IMG/VR virus record: IMGVR_UViG_3300042922_000295
Coordinates: 1 to 64,000 of that record
DNA length: 64,000 bases
Reading direction: 5' to 3' (one strand)
DNA from: a virus
Each line of letters starts with the position of its first letter. Position 1 is the first letter of the stretch. Positions 41,901-62,319 of this stretch are shown here, one piece after another. The translations under genes were made by a program, and so were the position numbers. The notes under the pieces are model-generated. The model was not told the origin of the DNA. It ran no database searches and saw nothing but the letters and a program-made list of their open reading frames with translations.

Positions 41901-42564
41901 GCGTCGCATCCAGAGCGTCATCACCGACCCGCCCTTCGGCGTGGACAACCTGTCGAACATGGCGACGACGCAGGCTGGCAAGGAGTATGCCCGCAAGATC
42001 GCCAACGACGAGTCCCCCGAGGTGGCGATCAAGGTCTTCCGTGACGTCATGGAGTCCGTCATCCCCGGGATGAAGGAGGAGTCGGACATCTACATCTTCA
42101 CGGCGCACCAGGTGCTGGAGGAGTGGCTGGTGTTCACCCGGGACCTCCTGGAGCCGCACGGCTTCCGCCGCAAGGCGATCCTCGTGTGGGAGAAGGATGG
42201 CCCCGGCATGGGCGACCTCAACTCGTGGGGCATGGGCTGCGAGTTCGTCCTGTACTACAAGCGGGGCAACCGCGAGAAGTCGGACAAGCGCCGGAACAAC
42301 GTCCTGCACCTCCCGCAGCTCAGGCCGAACGAGCTCATCCACCCGCACGAGAAGCCGGAGCAGTTGCTGGAGTTGCTCCTGAAGCACTCGACGGACCCGG
42401 GCGACTTCGTCATCGACCCGTTCGGTGGTAGCGGCAGCCTCGTGCGCGCCGCTCGCCGGTGCGGCCGGTCGGCGGTCGCCATCGAGCTGGACGAGAAGAA
42501 CTACGAACTCGCCAGCAAGAAGCTCAACGAGGGCGACGGCGGAGGCTTCGACTTCGGAGTGTGA
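41836..42564 (+). CDS. DNA adenine/cytosine-N4 methyltransferase
   Basis: 242 residues from ATG 41836. The catalytic motif DPPF (31-34, VITDPPFGV) precedes the S-adenosylmethionine motif DPFGGSGS (194-201), the beta-class order; HPHEKPEQLLELL (169-181) is the usual segment before it. Modifies amino groups in DNA, likely protecting phage DNA from host restriction or marking it. No cognate nuclease is adjacent, so it appears to be an orphan. Ends just before a strong hairpin. Confidence 0.9.
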   Translation: MGLVHQIWHGDSVELAQRFHAKRRIQSVITDPPFGVDNLSNMATTQAGKEYARKIANDESPEVAIKVFRDVMESVIPGMKEESDIYIFTAHQVLEEWLVFTRDLLEPHGFRRKAILVWEKDGPGMGDLNSWGMGCEFVLYYKRGNREKSDKRRNNVLHLPQLRPNELIHPHEKPEQLLELLLKHSTDPGDFVIDPFGGSGSLVRAARRCGRSAVAIELDEKNYELASKKLNEGDGGGFDFGV

Positions 42565-42576
42565 TCGACCTGCCAG

Positions 42577-42627
42577 GCGGGGGCGGCGTATCCGGTAGTG
42601 CACGCACTATCACGCCGCCCCCGCTTT
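42577..42627 (+). terminator. terminator with nested stems
   Basis: GCGGGGGCGGCGT (42577-42589) pairs with ACGCCGCCCCCGC (42612-42624); the loop itself holds GGTAGTG-CACG-CACTATC; TTT follows. Confidence 0.85.
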
Positions 42628-42674
42628 CGGCTACCATGACACCACCCGAAGCCCCGACCCAGCAGGAGGCACCA

Positions 42675-43028
42675 GTGAGTACGACCGAAGGCCAGGAGGT
42701 GCGGGAAGTCCACCCGTTCTCCATGGACAGGATCAGCCCTGTCATGAGCTTCGCCCCCGTCCCCGAAGTCGAGGCGGAGGTCCCAAAAGAAGAATCTGCA
42801 CCGGAGCCTGCTCCCGTGCCCGATCCGACGCCGACGACTCCGGACCCGGAGAAGAAGGACCCGGAGGACGACCCGCTCAAGGACGTGAAGGTGAGCGAGG
42901 GGGAGGCTTCGAAGAAGTCTGGGGAATCGACCTCGTCCCCCACGCCGCCCACGACCCCCGCACCCCCGGCGAAGCCTGCGACTGCGGCGAAGGTGTCGAA
43001 GAGCGACTCGCCGACTTCTTCCAAGTAG
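42675..43028 (+). CDS. Pro/Glu-rich protein overlapping WhiB domain
   Basis: 117 residues from GTG 42675, preceded by AGGAGG (ATG 42636 would lie too close to the hairpin). About 40 ordinary residues (TEGQEVREVHPFSMDRISPV; MSFAPVPEVEAEVPK) are followed by a disordered Pro/Thr/Lys tail. The -1 frame is open across the whole gene and leads without a stop into a WhiB domain. A canonical slippery heptamer C-CCA-AAA sits at 42782-42788 in the right phase. The protein may thus exist as a short form and as a WhiB fusion. Confidence 0.65.
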   Translation: MSTTEGQEVREVHPFSMDRISPVMSFAPVPEVEAEVPKEESAPEPAPVPDPTPTTPDPEKKDPEDDPLKDVKVSEGEASKKSGESTSSPTPPTTPAPPAKPATAAKVSKSDSPTSSK

Positions 43029-43249
43029 ACACGTCATGGCAGGAGCGCGGAGCATGCTTCGGCCGGGCTCCTGCCAAGCGTGGCGAGCCTGACCCCTTCT
43101 TCCCGGAGAAGGGGTCTATCGCCTTGGCGAACAAGGCAATCAAGGAGTATTGCATGGTCTGCCCCGTGCGCAAGCTGTGCAAGCAGTACCAAGAAGAGAC
43201 TGGCTCCGTCGGAGTATGGGGCGGGCAGTACATCGGTCGAGATTCCTGA
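43001..43249 (+). CDS. whiB-like: WhiB-family domain lacking its own start codon
   Basis: Frame reading ERLADFFQVDTSWQERGACF...DPFFPEKG...CMVCPVRKLC...GVWGG. All four iron-sulfur cysteines are present (codons at 43055, 43151, 43160, 43178; C-x31-C-x2-C-x5-C), as is the GVWGG turn, so the fold is complete. No ATG, GTG or TTG precedes the domain in this frame anywhere back past 42640; the only in-frame TTG lies inside the domain. Expression therefore needs a -1 frameshift from the 42675 gene, a non-standard start codon, or a sequencing error. WhiB proteins bind sigma factor and control transcription; phage copies can interfere with host regulation. The given start is the domain edge. Confidence 0.8.
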   Translation, partial: ERLADFFQVDTSWQERGACFGRAPAKRGEPDPFFPEKGSIALANKAIKEYCMVCPVRKLCKQYQEETGSVGVWGGQYIGRDS

Positions 43250-43260
43250 AGGGAACAACA

Positions 43261-43581
43261 GTGAACGTCCACAAGGTCACCATCTACACGGACCCCGAGA
43301 CCGGCAAGCTCAGGTGGCGCTTCGTCCGCAAGGATGGGTCGATCCTCGCGGAGAGCACCAAGGTGTACGACACCCGCGAAGAGCTCATGGAGGACATGCA
43401 GATCGTCGTCGGCCTGTGGTTCGCCTTCGACGAGCACATGCCGGACCGCGTCAAGCAGGTCAGCCTCCACCGGAGCGAGCCGGTCGGCCTGGAGCTGCCT
43501 CAGCCGCAGGTCACCCCGGCCGAGCCCGAGGAGTCCGGCGAGGTCATCGGCGACCCCGACACCGAGGTCGAGCAGCCGTGA
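43261..43581 (+). CDS. DUF1508/YegP-like protein
   Basis: 106 residues from GTG 43261, GAAGGGAAC upstream. NVHKVTIYTDPETGKLRWRF then VRKDGSILAESTKVYDTREE matches the YegP-type unit (strand, RWR, A/S..Y.....). Acidic Pro-rich tail. GTGA overlap with the nuclease gene. Function of the family is unclear. Confidence 0.7.
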   Translation: MNVHKVTIYTDPETGKLRWRFVRKDGSILAESTKVYDTREELMEDMQIVVGLWFAFDEHMPDRVKQVSLHRSEPVGLELPQPQVTPAEPEESGEVIGDPDTEVEQP

Positions 43582-44801
43582 GGCCCAAGTCTCTGTCGGC
43601 ATCAGCGCTGCAGGTTGCAGCGCTGTGCCTCTCTCGGTACAACGCGGAGAACATCAACTACTCACGCGGCGCGTCCAACGAGGCGGCTCTCACCGGAACG
43701 TCGGCGCACGGCGCACTGGAGTTGTACGTCCAGAAGGTGTACCTGGAGAAGTCGATGGAGCCGAGCGTCGAGCTGCTCCTGGAGTTCTTCAAGCTGTCGT
43801 ACGTCAAGACGTTCGGCAACTCGGACTTCCGCTCGAAGAACTACAAGGACGGCGTGAAGATGCTCACGGCGTGGTTCGAGCGTACGTCGTTCGAGGGCTT
43901 CGAGGTCATCAGTACGGAGAAGAAGAAGAACTTCCCCATCCCCGTGATGATCGACGGAGTCAAGGACTCCATCCCGTTCAACTATGTTCTCGACCGGTTC
44001 GATCGCCTCGGCGAGACGAAGTACCGAGTCGTGGACTACAAGACGAACATCATGCCGCTCTCGCCGTCCGACCTGCGCGACAAGCCGCAGGCTCGCTGCT
44101 ACGCACTCGCCATGCAGATCGAGCACAAGGATGCCACCCAGATCTGGGTCGAGTTCGACATGCTTCGTCACGACGGCCCCGTGGGTGTGACCTACACCCG
44201 CGAGGACAACGTCGAGACGTGGAAGTGGATCAAGGCCGAGGCGCAGCGCATCATCGACACGCCCACGACCAAGATCGACAAGCAGACGGGCGAGGAGGTT
44301 CCGGCCAAGCTGCCCGAGACGCTCAACCCGGAGTGCAACTTCTGCATCCGCAAGACCACGTGCGAGACGGTCACCCGGAACATCGAGAACGGCGGCGTCC
44401 TGAGTCTCGGGATGCCGGGGATCGCTGACCGCCGCGCCGCGCTGGAGAACCAGAAGAAGGCGGCGGCGGCTGCCATCGAGGAGATCGACCGCGTCCTCCT
44501 GGCCGAGGCCAAGGTTGCCGACGTCGACCTCATCCCGGGAGACGACTACGACCTCGCGGTCGGCGTCTCGAAGCGTCGGGGCGTGGACGCGGAACGTCTC
44601 GTCATGGTACTGGCGGACAGCCCGAACCTGATCCGCAAGTACACCGGCGGCGCGTCCATCACGATGCGTGACTACGACGCCCTGCTGTCCGACCCCGAGC
44701 TCACCGAGGATCAGCGGCGGCACGTGTCAGGGCTGGTTTCGACCCGCTACGGGGAGCCGAGCATCCGAGTCAAGAAGAAGCCGACGATCCGCTCGAAGTA
44801 G
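43578..44801 (+). CDS. cas4-like: Cas4/RecB-like PD-(D/E)XK exonuclease
   Basis: 407 residues from GTG 43578 (GTGA overlap). Nuclease motifs: an N-terminal Cys (ALCLSRYNAEN), GTSAHGALEL, D...KYRVVDYKTN (the D..(D)YK core), Q..CYALAMQ (QxxxY-type), and C-terminal CNFCIRKTTC. The four Cys can hold an iron-sulfur cluster, as in Cas4/AddB. A helical extension (about 290-400) follows. Phage Cas4-like enzymes act on DNA ends; there is no CRISPR array here. Final gene of the nucleic-acid operon. Confidence 0.87.
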   Translation: MRPKSLSASALQVAALCLSRYNAENINYSRGASNEAALTGTSAHGALELYVQKVYLEKSMEPSVELLLEFFKLSYVKTFGNSDFRSKNYKDGVKMLTAWFERTSFEGFEVISTEKKKNFPIPVMIDGVKDSIPFNYVLDRFDRLGETKYRVVDYKTNIMPLSPSDLRDKPQARCYALAMQIEHKDATQIWVEFDMLRHDGPVGVTYTREDNVETWKWIKAEAQRIIDTPTTKIDKQTGEEVPAKLPETLNPECNFCIRKTTCETVTRNIENGGVLSLGMPGIADRRAALENQKKAAAAAIEEIDRVLLAEAKVADVDLIPGDDYDLAVGVSKRRGVDAERLVMVLADSPNLIRKYTGGASITMRDYDALLSDPELTEDQRRHVSGLVSTRYGEPSIRVKKKPTIRSK

Positions 44802-52287: not shown

Positions 52288-54902
52288 TACCCGACCTCCT
52301 CGTAAGGAATGGTGATGTCACCCATCTCGGAGGTGCCGGTCCCCGGGAGGGGCGACCAGCCGATGTTCCCGAGGGCGACCTCGAACAGGCGACCGAACGG
52401 CGTCCGGTAGTAGTACGACTCCTGCGAGTTGCGCATCGCCTCGATGGCGAGACGGAACCGGTTCGGCCGCTCCGTCCCACGCGCCTGGCAGACGATCGAT
52501 CCGGTGTACCCGAGTCGGTCACCGTAGTCACGGTGGCGCCCTCGACCGATGATGGTAGACGTCTCGGACTCGTACTCCAGGGTGCTGTCATCGCTGATGA
52601 CGTTCTGGAGGCGAACGCTAAGCTGGGGGTTGTCCGGGTCGATCAGCCAGTAGTGCGTGAGGTCGATGAAGTAGACGCGGTTCTCGACCTGCTCGTCACC
52701 GCTGGGGTCATCTGCAGGGACATAGTAGCCGACCGGGCTCTCCAGGAGGATGCCGGAACGGCTCGCCGCCTGGGTAACCGAGTAGGCGTAGTTGCTCCCG
52801 GCGCTGACCATGTAGTCGCGGAACTCGCGGGTGTTCTGGTTCGTGACCTCGCCGATCAGCTTCCACGTGGTGTCGGGCAGGTTACGTCGGTAGACCTTCC
52901 ATGCTGCGAAGAGCGGGTCGGGAGCCGCATCCACCCAGGTGACACTGACGTAGCCGTTCTCGTCCACCTGATCCACGTTGACACTGTAGGACAAGATGTC
53001 CGGGGCGATGTACTCCGTCTCGAACGCTCCGGTAGCCACGCCCGTGAGGCCAAGCGAGTCGGTAGCCTCGATACGGAAGTGGTAACTACGAGCGTTGATG
53101 AGGACGACGACCTGGGGCGTGACCTGGGTGGCCTGCCCGACCACCGCATCGGTCCAGATGAGCTCGTTGTTGGCGTCGTCGAACACCTCGATGACAGCCA
53201 GAGCCTGCGTGCCACCGGACGGGGCGGTGAACTCCCACGAGAACGTCGGCGCGCCGTTGTCGACCGGCAGGGACGGGGCGGGCGTGATGACCGTCACGAC
53301 AGGCGGGTCGGCCAGCGTGAACAGTCCCCAGCCGGTCCAGCCGGACTCGGTGTCGCCCTTGTCCCAGACCTTCACGCGCCAGCGCAGGACGTCGTTCTTC
53401 TTGTCCTCCGGGATGGCGACCGACCGCGAGACCGTCGGGTTGGAGGCACTCGACACGAGTGCGACCTTGCCGCTGTCGTAGACCACGTCGCCGGAGAGGT
53501 TGTCCTCGATGACGAGCTGGTAGGCAGACTGCACGTCGTTCGGGTTGGCCGCGTCCGTGAAGCGCCACTGGAACACCGTCTGCGCCTCGTACCGAACCGT
53601 GCTCCCTGTGACGGGAGACTGGAGAGAGACGGACGGCTGGTGTGCCTGGGTGATCTTGAGCGTGGTCGACCAGGGAGTGATGTAGCCCGTGTTGAGGTTC
53701 GTGACCTTCGACCGCATGTACCAGTCGCCGGACTTCAGGTACACCGCCGTCTTGGTGAAGCGGTACAGGCTGTTCGAGGCGACCGCAGCAGGGGTCAGCG
53801 TCTCGGTGGTAACTCCCGTGGCAAAGGTGGAGTCCTGCGACACCTCGACCGTAATGAGGCTCTTCGTGGCGATGATGCCGAGTGCCTTGATCGTGACGTC
53901 GAGGATGCCGTTGCTGACGGTCGCGTTGTTCGCGGGGGACGAGAACTCCGGGGTGCCAGCGAGTGTGGTGAACGCCTGTGCAGCAGACCACGGGCCAGGG
54001 CCGACACCGTTGGTGGCGCGGACGCGAGCCCAGTATGGCGTGCCAGGCGTGAGGTCCGTCAGCTCGGCAGGCGTGGTTCCGTCATCGAAGTTCTTGACGC
54101 CTGCCGTGAAGCCGCTGTTCGTGGCATACTGGATGTTGAACGTCTTGAGCGCCGACCCGCCGGTGCTGGCAGGGTTCACGAAGTTCAGCCGAGCGGACGT
54201 CTGCTCGACGTTCGAGATGGACACGCTCTGCGGCACGGTGGGGATCGTGGCGCCCGTAGTGAAGGAGATCGTGCCGGACCAGGCACCCCATCCTACGCCG
54301 TTACGTGCCCGCGTACGGGCGTAGTAGGTGGTTGCCGCAGCCAGACCCGTGACGGTCCCCGAACCACCGCCCCACGTGAGATGCGGCGAGGCGAAGTTCG
54401 AGTTGTTGTCGACCTGGCTCTGGTACTCCTGGATGCCCGAGCCGCGCCCGTCCGCAGCGCTGACGGTGATGCGAGCGCTGTTGTTCGTGACCGACCCGGC
54501 CGAGATGCCAGGCTGCGTCGGGACGTTCGCAGGGCGCGCCGGAACCTGCCACGACCGGGACACGCTCGGCGCGCCGCCGAGGTAGGAGCCGCTGATCGAG
54601 GCGTTGAATCCCCACACCGGACCTGGCGAGTAGTTCAGCCCAGCGACGACGTGGCGAGTCGAGATGAACTTCGTCTGCGGCTGACCAGGAACGTTCGGGG
54701 TGTTCATGTAGAACGCCCACGACCCACTTCCCCACGAGTCGGCGAAGTGGTACGTCTGGTTGTCCGCGAAGCCCCAGCCGTCCGAGCCGACATAGTAGTC
54801 AGCGTAGACGTTGATGGCAGTCGTGTTCGTGTTGTACGAGTCGTGTCGGATGTCGATACCGACTCGCTCGTGCTGCGAATAGCCGCCCCAGACGATAGCC
54901 AT
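52287..54902 (-). CDS. minor tail protein with fibronectin type III repeats
   Basis: 871 residues. A jelly-roll-like head (residues 1-120) precedes at least two clear FN3 modules with the usual landmarks: SARITVSAADG...GLAAATTYYARTRARN and SARLNFVNPAS...DLTPGTPYWARVRATN. Two or three more divergent Ig-like modules follow, then a C-terminal phage domain (QNVISDDSTLEYESETSTII...YRTPFGRLFEVALG). FN3 domains of phage tails are thought to bind cell-surface polysaccharide. Shares single-base overlaps with both neighbours. Confidence 0.82.
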   Translation of the reverse strand: MAIVWGGYSQHERVGIDIRHDSYNTNTTAINVYADYYVGSDGWGFADNQTYHFADSWGSGSWAFYMNTPNVPGQPQTKFISTRHVVAGLNYSPGPVWGFNASISGSYLGGAPSVSRSWQVPARPANVPTQPGISAGSVTNNSARITVSAADGRGSGIQEYQSQVDNNSNFASPHLTWGGGSGTVTGLAAATTYYARTRARNGVGWGAWSGTISFTTGATIPTVPQSVSISNVEQTSARLNFVNPASTGGSALKTFNIQYATNSGFTAGVKNFDDGTTPAELTDLTPGTPYWARVRATNGVGPGPWSAAQAFTTLAGTPEFSSPANNATVSNGILDVTIKALGIIATKSLITVEVSQDSTFATGVTTETLTPAAVASNSLYRFTKTAVYLKSGDWYMRSKVTNLNTGYITPWSTTLKITQAHQPSVSLQSPVTGSTVRYEAQTVFQWRFTDAANPNDVQSAYQLVIEDNLSGDVVYDSGKVALVSSASNPTVSRSVAIPEDKKNDVLRWRVKVWDKGDTESGWTGWGLFTLADPPVVTVITPAPSLPVDNGAPTFSWEFTAPSGGTQALAVIEVFDDANNELIWTDAVVGQATQVTPQVVVLINARSYHFRIEATDSLGLTGVATGAFETEYIAPDILSYSVNVDQVDENGYVSVTWVDAAPDPLFAAWKVYRRNLPDTTWKLIGEVTNQNTREFRDYMVSAGSNYAYSVTQAASRSGILLESPVGYYVPADDPSGDEQVENRVYFIDLTHYWLIDPDNPQLSVRLQNVISDDSTLEYESETSTIIGRGRHRDYGDRLGYTGSIVCQARGTERPNRFRLAIEAMRNSQESYYYRTPFGRLFEVALGNIGWSPLPGTGTSEMGDITIPYEEVG

Positions 54903-57900
54903 TACTTACCCGCCAGGTCTTCGAGGTTACGGATGAACTTCTCGGCGTCGTTCTCGTCCTTGATGTTCGGGAACGACAGGTCGCCGTGGAAGTGGAAGGT
55001 TCGGTTGTCGTTGTACGTCTGGCTCTGCACTCCGGACTCCGCCTTCTCCAGGCGGGCCATGATGCGGTCGAGACGGCCAGACAGGCTCTGGATGCTGTTG
55101 TTGCCCTGGAACATCGTCTGCCAGTTGCGGGGCAGCGGGATGACAGCCTCGTCTCGACCGGCTTCGCCGATGGTCGCGAGCGTACCACCGCGCCGTGCGC
55201 CGACGATACCGCCGTCTGCAAGCGGCACACCCTTGCTAGCCATCCACGGAACAGGGTTCGTGGCGACCCCGCCCTGCTTCACGATGAAGTGAAGGTGGGA
55301 ACCAGTCGATGCACCTGTGCTACCCATGCGGGCGATGAGCTCGCCCGGGGTGACCTGACGCGGCCCTCCGACGTAGCCGGAGAGGTGGCCGTACCACGTC
55401 TGCAGACCGGCGCCGTGGTCGACCTTCGCGTACTGACCCAGACCGCCGTTCATGCTGTGGTAGGTCACCCGACCACCGGCAGCGGCGAAGATCGAGGAGC
55501 CCATCGGACCGGCAAGGTCGACGCCGTCGTGCAGGCGACGCTGACCGGTGATCGGGTGCGTACGCATACCGAACGGCGAGGACATTCGGTAGCCCGTTGC
55601 AGGCTTGCGCCACGGACCAGACCCGCCAACCTCGGTCGCAGCCTTGCGGTACGCCTCGTCCGTTCCGGTGACCCACTCCCAGACCTGATTGAGCCCGGCC
55701 TGTGCGTACTTCTTGCCGAACTGCCAGGTCATACCGTCGATCTGCGTCTGTGCAAGCTGGCGGATCGGCTCGAAGATGACGGACGCCGCGCCCTGTGCAA
55801 CATCCTTGAGCCAGTCGACACCCTGGCCCGCGAGGTCCGCACCCTTGCCGATGAACGCCTTGACATCCTCCCAGCCGCCCATCCCGAGGCCGGTGTCGTC
55901 CGTCCCGGCGCCGATGCGCTTGCCGAGCTCCTCGTAGAGTGCGCTGGCACGGCGGCGGTGAGTCGGGTCGGTCGGGATGACGAACTCGGGGTGGTTCGCC
56001 TTTCCCTCACCGACGATGGCGCGAGCGCCGTTCGTCTCGAATCCGCCACCAACACGACGCGTCGGGATGGCACCACCCTTAGCCAGCAGGGGGATGGTGC
56101 TGATGTTCCAGTCGAGACCGGGCAGGATGTCCGCGACCTTGTTCAGGCCATCGATCAGCTTGTTGACGAACTTGATGCCGCTGTTGATGCCAGTCTTGAT
56201 GAAGGTCGTGATGTTGTCGAAGATGCCGCCGATCTTGTCCTTGACCCAGGTGAACGCACCAAGCATGTTGTCGCGCAGCGTGTTGAAGGCTGTCGTGGCA
56301 GCGTCCTTGAGGAGGTTGACCTTCTCCATGACGCTGTTGCGAATCTGCTGGAACTTCTCCACGACCTTGTCCCAGATCATCTTCGCGACTGCGATCAGGG
56401 TGTCCTTGAAGTTGTTCCACTTGGTGATGGCACCGGTCACGAGGTCTGCGATCCACTGCAGAACCTTCGCCCGCATGTCCAGAATCCAGCCGACGACCTC
56501 GTAGGCGATCATCTTGGCGAAGTTGACGATGTTGTTGTACCAGCCCTGGACGGTGGTGACGACTGCAACCACCATGTTCTTGATCCAGGTGGTCACCCGG
56601 TTGTACAGGTCCACGAACCAGTCCACGACACCATTGACGAGGCCAGACACGAAGTCGATGACCGTGTCCCACAGGTTCTTGAACCAGTCGATGATCGCCA
56701 GGACCATGTCCGGGATGATCGAGTGGCCGACCAGAACGTCCCAAAGCCAGGTGAAGAACTCGACGATGCCTTCGACCAGGCCGGAAACCAGGCCGTAGAC
56801 GATGTCCCAGGCGGTGGTGAAGATCGACACGATGGTGGACCAGATCGCACCGAAGATCTCGGTGATGCCCGTCCAGGCCCGCGACCAATCGCCCGTGAAC
56901 ACGCCGACGATGAAGTTCACCAGGCCTCGGATAACCTGGATGACGTTCCCGATGAGGTCACCGATGAAGCTGATGACAGGCTCGACGATGTTGCCGATCA
57001 TCGAGAACGCGGTCGAGAAGGCTGCGACGAGCGTTCCGCCGATGAAGCCCACGAGCGGCTTGAGGATGTAGTCCCAGAGCCACTTGAGGACGCCGCCGAT
57101 GTTGCCCAGCGCCTCCTTGACCGGACCCATCATCGGGCCGAACTTGGCGAGCTGGGTCTTGATCTCCTCGACGGCCGGGCCGACCGCCGCGACGAGGTTG
57201 TCCCAGATCTCCTTGAGCTGAGGGCCGAACAGGTCCCAGAGCTGGCTGGCGCCGCTACTAATGCCTTCCCACAGACCCTTGAACCAGTCGCCCACCGCTG
57301 CGAACTTGTCGGTGAACCCGCTGAAGTCGATTCCGCTGAACGCGTCCTTGAGGCCGCCGACGAGACCGTTCCAGGCGGGGACGATGGTCGTGTTCCACCA
57401 GTTGACGACCTTGTCCCACATGTTCTGGAGGCCGGTCAGCGGGTTGATCGACGCGAGCGACGCCGCGAGATCTTCCTCAAGCTGCTTGGTGAACTCGTCG
57501 ATCATCCCGGACTGGTCGCCGAACCCGCCTTCGCGGGCGATCGAATCCATTCCTCCAACGTCGGGGAACTCTCCACCCGCCGCGTTCATAAAGTTTTCGG
57601 CTCCGGGCGACAGGGACCCCGCTCCGCCCGCGCCGCCGCCCGCCGCCGCGTCCCGGGCCTGCTTCGCCGCCGACGCCGCGCTCGCGACGTCGTTCAGTGC
57701 GGCCTCGATCTCCCGGATAGCATCGGCGGTGAGCTGGTACTCGTCCTTCAGGGTCTGGAGGCTCGCGTACTCCTGATCGTACGCAGCCTGCACCGCGTTC
57801 TTCGCTGCGGTGAGCTGGTCAACAGAAGCGGACTGCGCGTCGTACGAGGCCTGGGCGGCGTCGAGCTGAGGCTGCAGCGCCGTCATCGCGGCCTGCTCGC

Positions 57901-60900
57901 GCTGGATGCCAGCGATGATCTCGGCGAACGTAAGCTCCTTGGACGCGTTCGCCGCCTGCTGAATCTGACGCTCCAGCCCGTCGAACTGCAGGCTGTTCTC
58001 CAGGTCGAGCCGGGTGCCCTGTCGCTGCAGGTCGGCAAGCTGCTTCTGCAGGTCGCTGATCCCGTTGCCCTGGCCCATGCTCTGACCCATGGCGTCATAC
58101 GCGGCCTGCATGGCATCGATCTGCGAGTTGATCGGACCGAGCACGTCCGACCCAGCACCTGCAGCGCGGAGGTCGTTAGACTCTCCGCGCAGCTTTTCGA
58201 TGTCGCCCTGCAGGGAGGCCATCTTGCCACTGATGTCCTCGACGGCGCCGCCAGCGTCCTCCAGGTCCATGATGGCGAGCTGGAGTCGCTTCTGCTCCAT
58301 GGTGTTCGCGAAGATCGCGTCGTCCATGGCCTGCATGCCGACGATGCCTGTGTTCGAGTAGTTCGCGATGGCATCGGCGTGAGCCTGGTACTGGTTCTGC
58401 AGCTTCTGCAGCTTGTCAGCCGCCGCGTCGAGCTTGTTCTGCTGCAGGTCGAGAGCGGTGTTCGCCGCGTCGAGCTTCTTCTTCCACGAGTCGACGACGT
58501 TCTGCTGGCGGGTGACCAGAACCTGCTGCTCGGCCAGGAGGGTGTTGAGAACCTTGAGGTCCCCGACCAGGGCGTTGAAGTTGCCGAGGTTCCCCGGCAT
58601 CATGTCCTTGACCTTGCCCCGCTGGTCCGACCACTCGTCGAAGTTCATCGAGGCTGCCATCTTCTTGAACTTGGCGAGGTCTGTAGCAGCCTTGCCGAAG
58701 ATGGCGCCGACGTTGCCGACGCTCTGGAACTGGCGCTTGATGGCTGCCATGCCCCAGGTGACCGTCTCCACGAGGGACGGGGAGTGGTGGGCAAACGGGT
58801 TGATATACGAGAACCACTCGTAGATCGCGAGTGCCGCCTGCTTGATGATGTTCACCACGGCGATCATCGACTTCTGGATACCCTCGGGCAGCTTGTAGAA
58901 CAGCCGCACGATCCCGTCGATGAGCCCCTGGAAGAACTTCCCGAGTGGCTCGAAGCCCTTGGCGATGCCCTCCGCGTTGCGCGACAGCCCCTGTCCGAGC
59001 TGGCTGAAGAAGTCCTTGATGTCGTTCCAGAAGATCGACAGCAGCGTGACAATCGCAGTGATGGCGATACCCCAGGGGCCGGTGAGCAGGCCGATGAGGC
59101 GAGGTCCCCACGTCTTGATGAACGCGAGGATCGCAGGCCAGAGTCCCTTGAAGAATGCGAGGACCGCCGCGCCACCCACCTTGAAGGCGACGAGGATCAT
59201 CGGGAACAGCTTGCCCCAGAGCGTCGCGATGGCAAGCATGGCGGTCCGAGACAGGGCGACGAGGGCGGCGTAGCCCTTCGCCATCACCGTCTGCATAGCC
59301 CACATGGCCTGCGCCATGAGGAGGCCGAGCCGCGCAGCCATTGGAGCGAACACTGCCGTGACGGCGGTCCACATCGCCACGAAGGCGCGCTGGACTCCAG
59401 CGATGCCAGCCCAGACAGCACCGGACAGGCCTGCCATGACCGAAGCCATGGTGCCCATCATCATCGGCACGCCCTTGGTGAACATCGCCGTCATGAGAAT
59501 GACGCCGCGCATCATGAGCAGGTTAATGCCTGCCCATCCCCGCTTGATGATGCCAGGGATCGTGGTGAACAGGAGCATCTGGAAGGCGAAGTTAACCCGC
59601 CCCAGCGCACCGAACACAGCCGGGCCGAGCAGTGCGGCCCTGGTGTACATAAAGGTGGTGATCTTGGCCCAGCCCGTGGAGATTGCGGCGCCCATGGCAG
59701 CGAACATCGAGGCGATTCCCGCCGTGATTCCGCCTGCCGCCGCGAAGGTCTTGACCGACCACAGGGCGATGATGCCCTTCACCCACAGAACCTTCATCGC
59801 CGCCCAACCGGCGGGGATCACCGTTCCAAGAACGGCGAACATCTTCGCGAAGCCAGCCGCTACGGCGATGCGCAGGGTAGCCATGTACGACTGGAACGAC
59901 GACATGCCCTTGACACTCGTCACTGCCGCTGCGCTCACGCCGAGCATGCCCTGGACGAGCCGCGACAGCCCGCCGAACAGCGCCCCGACTCCGGTCGCCG
60001 CCGCCGTGAACGGGAGGGCCAGGAACGAGCCCATGACGCGCACGGCAGGCAGCATACCCCCGGCGAACCAGTGGACGGCCTTTGCGAGCTGACCGAACAG
60101 GACTGCCGTTGCGCCGACGTACCGACCGATGGGGCCAATGAGGGCGAGGAACACTGCCCCGATGACGACGGCCTTCTGAATCCACGGCTCCAGCTCGCTG
60201 AACGACTTGGCGAGTTCCGCGACTTCCTTGGCAGCCCAGACGATCCACGGGATGAGCGGCTGGATGACGTCAGCCAGCGCGTTCTGCAGGATGACCCACA
60301 TCTGCTGCAGCTTGTGCGGCGACGAGTCGAGGACCGCGTTGAGCTCCTTGACCTTCTGGTTGTAGGTCTCGGTAGCACTCGCGGTGTGCTCCAGCGCTCG
60401 GTTGTAGTAGCCGAGCGGGTTGATGATGTCTCGCATGAGAACGTCGAAGCGGTTGATCTGCCAGCGTCCAGCGACCGATGCCGACACCTGCGCCTTCTGT
60501 GCGTCGCTGAGCTGGTCGAACGCCTCCGCCATCTTCTCCAGGCGCTGCGCACCGTTCAGGGACTGCCACCCCATGTCCTGGGTGTTCATCCCCATCATAC
60601 CCATGATCTCGGCAGCCTCCTTGGTAGGCGCCAGGAGACGGGAGAGGATGGTCTTGAGTGCGTTACCGGCATTCGCGGCCGACCCGGACGCCGGGACGAG
60701 CGCGGCGGTCAGGGCTGCGAGGTGCTGGACGTCGACACCGGCCGAGCGGGCCGAACCGGCAGCACGAGCGAAGGTCTGGATCAGACCCTCCATCGTGACA
60801 CCGGTCTCGTTCTCAACCATGTTGAGGGTGTCGATGGTCTTGGAGAGTTCCTGGGTACTCAGACCATACTGAGCCTGGATCGCGATGAGTGCCTCGGTGG

Positions 60901-61408
60901 CGGCAGCCGCCTCCATCTCACCGAGGACCATGGCCTCCAGTGTGAGCTTGACACCCCGGGCGAGCGCGATGCCGGATGCACCGGCTGCAGCCCAGTCTCC
61001 AGCGATCTCGATGACCTGCTGCTGGTGGACGCCGAAGCGGTCCGACAGGGCTCGAAAGGCTCCTTCGAGAGCCTTGAGCTCGTTGGTCATCACCTGCGCG
61101 GAAAGCCTACTATCTCCGTAGACCTTGTTCACGCGCACCATCGCCGCCTCGTTTTCGAGGGCGAACTTCGTTGCCGCCGCACCTGCGATGGCGAGGGGGA
61201 TGGTGAAGTTGTACGTGAGCTGTCGTCCGGCCCACTGCACCTGCGAGCCCCACTTGGTCAGGTTACTCCCAGCACCGACCTTGGTCTGGGCGCCCTGAGC
61301 GCGCTCAAGCTGCTGCTGCAGACTCGCAACTTCGCGGCGCAGGCTCTGGACCTCCTTCTGAGCCTGCGCGGCCTGAATGCGAATCTGGATCGCCATGAAG
61401 GCGTTCAT
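54902..61408 (-). CDS. tape measure protein with M23 peptidase domain
   Basis: 2168 residues. The N-terminal helical region (AAQAQKEVQSLRREVASLQQ) and the TMP-type domain (NELKALEGAFRALSDRFGVH) precede many hydrophobic helices, a long coiled coil near 1100-1290, and Trp-rich repeats. Close to the C-terminus there is a LytM/M23 zinc peptidase: SSPFGMRTHPITGQRRLHDG-VDLAG, HGAGLQTWYGHLSG, GSHLHFIV. By the 0.15 nm per residue rule the tail would be about 325 nm. The peptidase should help penetrate peptidoglycan during DNA entry. Confidence 0.93.
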   Translation of the reverse strand: MNAFMAIQIRIQAAQAQKEVQSLRREVASLQQQLERAQGAQTKVGAGSNLTKWGSQVQWAGRQLTYNFTIPLAIAGAAATKFALENEAAMVRVNKVYGDSRLSAQVMTNELKALEGAFRALSDRFGVHQQQVIEIAGDWAAAGASGIALARGVKLTLEAMVLGEMEAAAATEALIAIQAQYGLSTQELSKTIDTLNMVENETGVTMEGLIQTFARAAGSARSAGVDVQHLAALTAALVPASGSAANAGNALKTILSRLLAPTKEAAEIMGMMGMNTQDMGWQSLNGAQRLEKMAEAFDQLSDAQKAQVSASVAGRWQINRFDVLMRDIINPLGYYNRALEHTASATETYNQKVKELNAVLDSSPHKLQQMWVILQNALADVIQPLIPWIVWAAKEVAELAKSFSELEPWIQKAVVIGAVFLALIGPIGRYVGATAVLFGQLAKAVHWFAGGMLPAVRVMGSFLALPFTAAATGVGALFGGLSRLVQGMLGVSAAAVTSVKGMSSFQSYMATLRIAVAAGFAKMFAVLGTVIPAGWAAMKVLWVKGIIALWSVKTFAAAGGITAGIASMFAAMGAAISTGWAKITTFMYTRAALLGPAVFGALGRVNFAFQMLLFTTIPGIIKRGWAGINLLMMRGVILMTAMFTKGVPMMMGTMASVMAGLSGAVWAGIAGVQRAFVAMWTAVTAVFAPMAARLGLLMAQAMWAMQTVMAKGYAALVALSRTAMLAIATLWGKLFPMILVAFKVGGAAVLAFFKGLWPAILAFIKTWGPRLIGLLTGPWGIAITAIVTLLSIFWNDIKDFFSQLGQGLSRNAEGIAKGFEPLGKFFQGLIDGIVRLFYKLPEGIQKSMIAVVNIIKQAALAIYEWFSYINPFAHHSPSLVETVTWGMAAIKRQFQSVGNVGAIFGKAATDLAKFKKMAASMNFDEWSDQRGKVKDMMPGNLGNFNALVGDLKVLNTLLAEQQVLVTRQQNVVDSWKKKLDAANTALDLQQNKLDAAADKLQKLQNQYQAHADAIANYSNTGIVGMQAMDDAIFANTMEQKRLQLAIMDLEDAGGAVEDISGKMASLQGDIEKLRGESNDLRAAGAGSDVLGPINSQIDAMQAAYDAMGQSMGQGNGISDLQKQLADLQRQGTRLDLENSLQFDGLERQIQQAANASKELTFAEIIAGIQREQAAMTALQPQLDAAQASYDAQSASVDQLTAAKNAVQAAYDQEYASLQTLKDEYQLTADAIREIEAALNDVASAASAAKQARDAAAGGGAGGAGSLSPGAENFMNAAGGEFPDVGGMDSIAREGGFGDQSGMIDEFTKQLEEDLAASLASINPLTGLQNMWDKVVNWWNTTIVPAWNGLVGGLKDAFSGIDFSGFTDKFAAVGDWFKGLWEGISSGASQLWDLFGPQLKEIWDNLVAAVGPAVEEIKTQLAKFGPMMGPVKEALGNIGGVLKWLWDYILKPLVGFIGGTLVAAFSTAFSMIGNIVEPVISFIGDLIGNVIQVIRGLVNFIVGVFTGDWSRAWTGITEIFGAIWSTIVSIFTTAWDIVYGLVSGLVEGIVEFFTWLWDVLVGHSIIPDMVLAIIDWFKNLWDTVIDFVSGLVNGVVDWFVDLYNRVTTWIKNMVVAVVTTVQGWYNNIVNFAKMIAYEVVGWILDMRAKVLQWIADLVTGAITKWNNFKDTLIAVAKMIWDKVVEKFQQIRNSVMEKVNLLKDAATTAFNTLRDNMLGAFTWVKDKIGGIFDNITTFIKTGINSGIKFVNKLIDGLNKVADILPGLDWNISTIPLLAKGGAIPTRRVGGGFETNGARAIVGEGKANHPEFVIPTDPTHRRRASALYEELGKRIGAGTDDTGLGMGGWEDVKAFIGKGADLAGQGVDWLKDVAQGAASVIFEPIRQLAQTQIDGMTWQFGKKYAQAGLNQVWEWVTGTDEAYRKAATEVGGSGPWRKPATGYRMSSPFGMRTHPITGQRRLHDGVDLAGPMGSSIFAAAGGRVTYHSMNGGLGQYAKVDHGAGLQTWYGHLSGYVGGPRQVTPGELIARMGSTGASTGSHLHFIVKQGGVATNPVPWMASKGVPLADGGIVGARRGGTLATIGEAGRDEAVIPLPRNWQTMFQGNNSIQSLSGRLDRIMARLEKAESGVQSQTYNDNRTFHFHGDLSFPNIKDENDAEKFIRNLEDLAGK

Positions 61409-61516: not shown

Positions 61517-61807
61517 CTATCGGCGGCGTCCGCCAGCAACTCGACCTGCTCCCTTGCCGCTCGATTGCTTTTTGCGATCGAGCTCTCGCTTCCGCTCTTG
61601 CTCGGCTTCGTGCTCGCCGCGCTTAGCGAAGATGTAGCGAAAGTCTTCCAGGAGCTTCGGGTGTTGATCGTACAGCCCACCCTCCACCGGGAGGTGGTTC
61701 CACTTCATCGACTCGCACAGTGCGAACAGGCGGATCGACTCGGCAGGGTTCGGTACGGACTCACCCTTGATGAACAGGTCTACTTGCTGGTGGAAGAGCC
61801 TTCCCCC
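61517..61807 (-). CDS. tail assembly chaperone, frameshift extension
   Basis: In the -1 frame relative to the gene at 61780-62319, an open frame continues LFHQQVDLFIKGESVPNPAE, SIRLFALCESMKWNHLPVEG, GLYDQHPKLLEDFRYIFAKR and ends in a basic tail at 61517. It has no good start of its own. The candidate slip site is G-GGG-GAA (61807-61801 on the minus strand), just before the first product's stop. This is the conserved G/GT arrangement of siphovirus tail genes; the extension would recruit tape measure protein. Confidence 0.82.
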   Translation of the reverse strand, partial: GGRLFHQQVDLFIKGESVPNPAESIRLFALCESMKWNHLPVEGGLYDQHPKLLEDFRYIFAKRGEHEAEQERKRELDRKKQSSGKGAGRVAGGRRR

Positions 61808-62319
61808 GCCTCGCGCTCCTCGGCCTCCTTGATGAGCTTGTCGAGCTCGTCACGCTGCTCGTACAGCTCCTTGGCCGACAGCTCCGCCGTGAGCCAGGGG
61901 TTGGCCTTGCGGATCGCGACCTCGATCTTCTCGATGATCGCGGGGTTGGCGTCGCGCAGGAACTCGCGACGCGTCTGCGCGTTGAAGGGGACGTCCTCCA
62001 GGGGGCCGTCCGCGCTGCGGCGGCGCTTGAGGTTCCAGCCGACGAGGCTCGTCTCGATGAGCGCGTGGCGCTCCGAGGCCGGGTCCATCCGGGTGCGGGC
62101 GTCGCCGCCGCGCTGGATGACGAGGTCGCGCTGGGTGTCGCGCTGGAAGCGCGCCTTCTGGCCCTCGTTCATGATGGCGTACTCGACGTACGACACCTTG
62201 TCGGGGAAGAGGAAGCGCTCGGTGCCGCCGAAGCCGAAGTAGTCCATCTGCGGCTGCTGGAACGAGTCCGGCGCGGCGTCGACGGGCTGGGGGGTGTACT
62301 GCGTGGAAGTCTCGGACAT
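61780..62319 (-). CDS. tail assembly chaperone, short form
   Basis: 179 residues from ATG 62319. Opens with an extended region (SETSTQYTPQPVDAAPDSFQ) and FGFGGTERFLFPDKVSYVEY, then a helical domain (RREFLRDANPAIIEKIEVAI; DELDKLIKEAEEREAGEG). Position directly before the tape measure gene and the -1 extension at its 3' end identify it as the first tail assembly chaperone. Confidence 0.82.
   Translation of the reverse strand: MSETSTQYTPQPVDAAPDSFQQPQMDYFGFGGTERFLFPDKVSYVEYAIMNEGQKARFQRDTQRDLVIQRGGDARTRMDPASERHALIETSLVGWNLKRRRSADGPLEDVPFNAQTRREFLRDANPAIIEKIEVAIRKANPWLTAELSAKELYEQRDELDKLIKEAEEREAGEGSSTSK

Follow-up and report, generated by a model that had tools for sequence, protein, structure and literature searches.

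Programmed frameshifting and WhiB proteins are each already known, and in phages programmed frameshifting is known mainly from tail, capsid and transposase genes. The tail assembly chaperone pair G/GT is reportedly made by a -1 frameshift in lambda and in most long-tailed phages, as described by Xu, Hendrix and Duda in 2004, a work cited in PMC11556095. Like G/GT, the locus studied here has one start, two overlapping frames and an in-phase slippery site, and it is predicted to give both a short protein and a fusion with a C-terminal extension. A strong stimulator is often missing in the chaperone system; at the WhiB locus no conserved one was found. Unlike G/GT, the extension consists of a WhiB domain plus a cysteine module, and it lies away from the tail genes. 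The positional criterion for G/GT, a chaperone gene directly 5' of the tape measure gene, is not met, as the locus stands between genes for a methylase and a Cas4-like exonuclease. Tandem slippage on X_XXY_YYZ is shared with dnaX tau/gamma and with IS3/IS911, but these systems have clear SD-like and/or RNA-structure stimulators, while no conserved stimulator was found here. Regarding the encoded domain, the locus resembles the Wbl regulators of Actinobacteria and phages (PF02467), of which TM4 WhiB is a phage example, in the order C-x(n)-C-x2-C-x5-C followed by G-V/I-W. The other Wbl loci compared have their own start and no additional module, whereas in the phage group described here WhiB is reachable only or mainly by the frameshift and four extra invariant cysteines are found upstream of it. 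What we describe is a conserved and previously unannotated -1 programmed frameshift, inferred from sequence, which would lead to an eight-cysteine WhiB fusion, and both this use of frameshifting and this form of the protein appear to be new.

The analysed window comprises the first 64,000 bases of the 84,497-base virus record IMGVR_UViG_3300042922_000295. The overlapping frame pair is located between a DNA methylase gene (ORF end at 42564) and the gene of a PD-(D/E)XK/Cas4-like exonuclease (43578-44801, + strand), and all its features lie on the + strand as well. The 0-frame gene (42675-43028) begins with GTG and encodes a Pro/Glu/Lys-rich protein of 117 aa, which is the short product and also provides the N-terminus of the fusion. 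Its Shine-Dalgarno sequence AGGAGG (42664-42669) was read directly, and comparable sites precede the gene in most relatives. The -1 frame is free of stop codons from 42599 up to the stop at 43247-43249, and its part in the predicted fusion (42788-43249) has 153 codons and the stop. This part contains a cysteine module (42797-42994) which exists in the -1 frame only and consists of CTGAC (42797-42811) and CDCGEG (42977-42994), followed by the WhiB domain (43037-43228) with cysteines at 43055, 43151, 43160 and 43178 and then GVWGG. Upstream of the gene, between it and the methylase, a perfect 13-nt inverted repeat (GCGGGGGCGGCGT/ACGCCGCCCCCGC) is present at 42577-42589 and 42612-42624. It is possibly the terminator of the methylase transcript, and in that case the frameshift gene would have its own promoter.

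The assignment of the WhiB domain is based on a PF02467 match of 38.8 bits (Pfam gathering score 23.6), and the profile also matches the solved WhiB1, WhiB3, WhiB4, WhiB6 and WhiB7 structures. The criteria of the Wbl family, namely PF02467 above gathering, four cysteines and G[VI]W, are fulfilled, and the cysteines as well as G-x-W-x-G are invariant in the alignment. No second WhiB is encoded in the 84,497-base record. The earliest ATG, GTG or TTG in the -1 frame of the window is the TTG at 43124, located 3' of the first WhiB cysteine (43055), and therefore ordinary initiation cannot yield a complete domain in the window. The original prediction had described a WhiB frame which is open but has no start before the domain, the four cysteines with GVWGG, and an overlapping gene with a strong ribosome site from which a -1 shift leads into WhiB. 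Positions, open frame and frame relation all proved correct.

Near DNA matches to the window were not found in the phage collection. However, a tblastn search with the WhiB part and a limit of E <= 1e-5 returned 101 phage records, exclusively from phages of Gordonia, Tsukamurella or Rhodococcus. A set of 29 relatives was compared together with the window, giving 30 loci with at least 18 clearly different sequences. In all 30 loci an upstream gene overlaps the WhiB frame, which is -1 relative to it, and all 30 carry an in-phase heptamer at the corresponding position, either CCCAAAA or CCCTTTA, the latter being found in about half of the phage family. The heptamer is positioned one to three codons 5' of the cysteine motif C-[TNS]-G-x-C ... 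C-x-C-G-[EH]-G, which is confined to the -1 frame. Directly after the heptamer the sequence reads R-x-x-C-[TNS]-G-x-C or R-C-[TN]-G-x-C, and P-K-I-L-I-C in Trogglehumper. The arrangement is kept even in the most distant relatives (Mbo2, ReqiDocB7, Perlina, Reynauld and Trogglehumper), and wherever the annotation of a relative was consulted, the gene of a Cas4/RecB-like exonuclease comes next, either directly 3' or after a few small genes. The prediction was to be given up if relatives had a normal WhiB start without the overlap, or if an indel restored one frame; instead, the overlap is present in all relatives compared and none of them has a single frame. Being an IMG/VR contig, the window possibly derives from a metagenome assembly, and an indel introduced by sequencing or assembly could have split a single gene into two frames. 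We attach practically no weight to this explanation, as the same split and the in-phase heptamer occur in isolates which several laboratories sequenced independently and which represent three host genera. When viral contigs were scanned with the pattern, the matches were mainly known phages, together with some metagenomic ones for which the full gene was not recovered. Five Acidimicrobiia loci which seemed to be start-less were rejected as an artefact of the search pattern, because a normal ATG follows.

Another explanation is that WhiB is translated on its own, by re-initiation or internal initiation 3' of the 0-frame stop, and that the overlap is incidental. Indeed, 13 of the 30 loci have an ATG or GTG shortly before the first WhiB cysteine, most of them within or close to the conserved W region that precedes it, and several GenBank entries start WhiB there. 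An additional short WhiB is possible in these loci. However, the ribosome sites of these internal starts are poor or absent at the usual spacing, and the remaining 17 loci, including the window, have no ATG, GTG or TTG in the -1 frame before this cysteine. Moreover, the conserved cysteine module upstream would stay untranslated. In Orchid, Gmala1 and GordTnk2 the heptamer is immediately preceded by a stop codon of the -1 frame, which in GMA3 and Jumbo lies one codon earlier, and no start codon was found between heptamer and cysteine motif. In these five relatives the motif can thus be reached only from the heptamer and not from further upstream. We consider independent translation of WhiB to be very improbable.

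The heptamer of the window, C_CCA_AAA (42782-42788, with the codons CCA at 42783-42785 and AAA at 42786-42788), is the only in-phase XXXYYYZ heptamer of the gene 42675-43028, so that the proposal of a slippery site in the correct phase holds. As a bare string CCCAAAA is not rare, with two occurrences in the window versus 1.9 expected. In-phase A/T-type heptamers, on the other hand, occur 19 times in 18 representative genes, whereas 3.3 are expected from codon shuffling. Each of the 18 genes has one at the homologous place, and this site accounts for 18 of the 19. The excess over chance is therefore due to in-phase position and conservation and not to the frequency of the string. The A-site codons themselves are exceptional: in 12 other clear genes of the window, among them 54905-61408 (- strand) and 43578-44798 (+ strand), none of the 281 Lys codons is AAA and none of the 7,131 codons is TTA, and in every representative with CCCTTTA the TTA of the slip site is the only one of its gene. 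This indicates that the A-site codon is kept against a strong opposing codon bias. Both CCCAAAA and CCCTTTA are among 18 heptamers giving more than 0.10% frameshifting in E. coli without stimulators (PMC4066793).

The AAAA within the site could also point to slippage of the polymerase during transcription instead of ribosomal frameshifting. A run of four A is short for polymerase slippage, and the CCCTTTA present in roughly half of the family offers no more than three T. Conservation concerns the X_XXY_YYZ pattern with its phase and not a homopolymer. By switching between CCC-AAA-A and CCC-TTT-A the site changes its bases but retains the tandem-slip pattern, and this favours the ribosomal mechanism; transcriptional slippage is hardly credible to us.

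Selection on the two frames was followed by counting variable columns at the codon positions. Before the heptamer the counts for 0-frame positions 1, 2 and 3 are 53, 51 and 137, so the N-terminal region of the short product displays ordinary 0-frame codon constraint. Within the overlap they are 31, 69 and 51, where position 2 corresponds to position 3 of the -1 frame, and after the 0-frame stop 46, 34 and 145 in the -1-frame register. As read from the aligned sequences, the codon-position variation follows the -1 frame once the heptamer is passed. The total variation is lower in the overlap, matching the expectation if both frames matter. The counts were summed over seven groups of related phages without a correction for shared ancestry. 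A later slip point around 42905-42925 had been suggested because the -1 frame looks more protein-like from there on. It is true that the -1 frame of the window is Gly/Arg-rich and less protein-like between the two cysteine pairs, but this linker is merely the variable part of the family. There is no in-phase XXXYYYZ heptamer at 42905-42925, and conserved -1-frame coding begins right after the heptamer with RRICTGAC. This part of the original prediction was dropped, and we see only a very slight chance for a later shift.

The overlap, its phase, the heptamer, their conservation and the switch of the frame under selection can all be observed in the sequences, and we are highly confident that the locus is one gene giving two products by a -1 programmed frameshift at 42782-42788. 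The reading as programmed frameshifting, already put forward in the original prediction, is supported by the conservation of heptamer, frame relation and -1-frame cysteine motif in at least 18 divergent sequences. According to this model ribosomes would start at the GTG at 42675, and the majority would stay in frame 0 up to 43028, giving the low-complexity protein of 117 aa. A minority, with CCA in the P site and AAA in the A site, would slip by -1 on C_CCA_AAA, the tRNAs re-pairing with CCC and AAA, and would continue in the -1 frame to 43249. The resulting product of 191 aa would carry in this order an N-terminus of 38 aa, the four-cysteine module, the linker and a WhiB domain that is complete and includes the four cluster-ligand cysteines. 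Promoter and ribosome site would be common to WhiB and the short protein and, since the WhiB of the window has no start of its own, its output would be governed by the slippage efficiency. That slippage takes place at all is inferred, and the fixed ratio of short protein to WhiB fusion is an inference too.

The efficiency of slippage likewise remains an inferred quantity. A downstream RNA structure, hairpin or pseudoknot, conserved among 18 sequences was not found (mean z -0.48 and -0.63), and an upstream SD-like (anti-SD) duplex is not consistent across the relatives: the pairing is strong in the window, Mbo2, DocB7 and Perlina and absent in Reynauld and GMA3. A possible hairpin of the window at about 42798-42819 was rejected as a stimulator, being no more stable than shuffled sequences (z -0.3) and not conserved. 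Because neither a conserved structure nor a consistent anti-SD pairing is present, the efficiency may be low. Without a conserved stimulator it is in fact unconstrained, and anything between less than one per cent and several tens of per cent could be compatible with the data. It is conceivable, though we regard it as rather unlikely, that the frameshift acts as a control device. In these very GC-rich phages the rare codon AAA or TTA, which is nearly unique, would then couple the output of the WhiB fusion to the translation state or tRNA supply of the infected host, and the short 0-frame protein would be a matched partner or competitor with a common N-terminus.

The predicted fusion of the window has 191 aa, 38 from frame 0 and 153 from the -1 frame beginning with RRICTGAC, compared to 117 aa for the predicted short form; across the relatives the fusions range from 170 to 248 aa. 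They are predicted to contain eight invariant cysteines, four of the module and four of WhiB. The module cysteines and CGEG are invariant in four alignments, with CTCGHG in the most divergent member Trogglehumper. Neither Pfam nor PHROG gave a match to the module itself, and the PDB match covers the WhiB part only. A standalone or in-frame version of the module did not come to light either: a tblastn search with the GMA3 module matched only members of the phage group, and the module is absent from the 80 bacterial WhiB loci retrieved. An AlphaFold2 model of the -1 part gives the WhiB fold with moderate confidence and the cysteine module with low confidence (pLDDT about 30-36). Judged from its C-x3-C and C-x-C motifs, the module is probably metal-binding. 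Binding of a [4Fe-4S] cluster and/or of sigma-A by the fusion is inferred solely from homology to the solved WhiB1, WhiB3 and WhiB7 structures, and an action on host sigma-A/RNA polymerase is inferred by analogy to other members of the WhiB family.

The annotation of these loci has so far consisted of two genes without relation to each other, of a shortened WhiB, or of no gene at all. GenBank holds a truncated WhiB of 33 aa in Diabla, a WhiB beginning after the first cysteine in Mbo2, later WhiB starts in Hollow and DocB7, and a gap at the locus in Eggsie, Orchid, GMA7 and TIN4. In the PHROG families, phrog_11832 (33 aa, unknown function) corresponds to a start-truncated WhiB and phrog_6890 ('endonuclease') to the half in frame 0; the two families seem to have arisen artificially because the frames were not joined. 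The truncated 33-aa WhiB, the unannotated gaps and the 'endonuclease' family of the 0-frame half can now be corrected. In agreement with the original prediction, which knew of no frameshift producing a WhiB regulator, we found no report of one in the open-access papers searched. A survey of phage WhiB proteins from 2021 does not use the word 'frameshift' (PMC8612146), and WhiB is not mentioned in the main text of the searched surveys and review on frameshifting. The PRFect study has many unassigned predictions among 'hypothetical' genes of SEA-PHAGES genomes, and some of the WhiB slip sites may sit unrecognised in its supplements.

Frameshifting seems to be a conserved route to a transcription-factor domain in these phages, and the predicted fusion defines an eight-cysteine form of WhiB. 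Provided that the close relatives outside the set of 30 loci share this behaviour, more than 100 sequenced phage records are concerned; the neighbouring exonuclease is present in roughly 118. For studies of frameshifting in high-GC actinobacteria, the locus offers a natural slippery site in Gordonia and Rhodococcus.

Two further observations concern other genes of these phages. Orchidvirus RobinSparkles has, besides the frameshifted WhiB, a further annotated WhiB gene (gp55) near a RusA resolvase gene. In the window an ordinary tail assembly chaperone gene (phrog_3096, 61783-62319, - strand) adjoins the tape measure gene (54902-61408, - strand) on its upstream side. Its likely -1 extension lies at about 61530-61800 (- strand), near GCG_GGG_GAA_GGC, and is probably a second programmed frameshift of the same phage, with a different and less canonical slip site.
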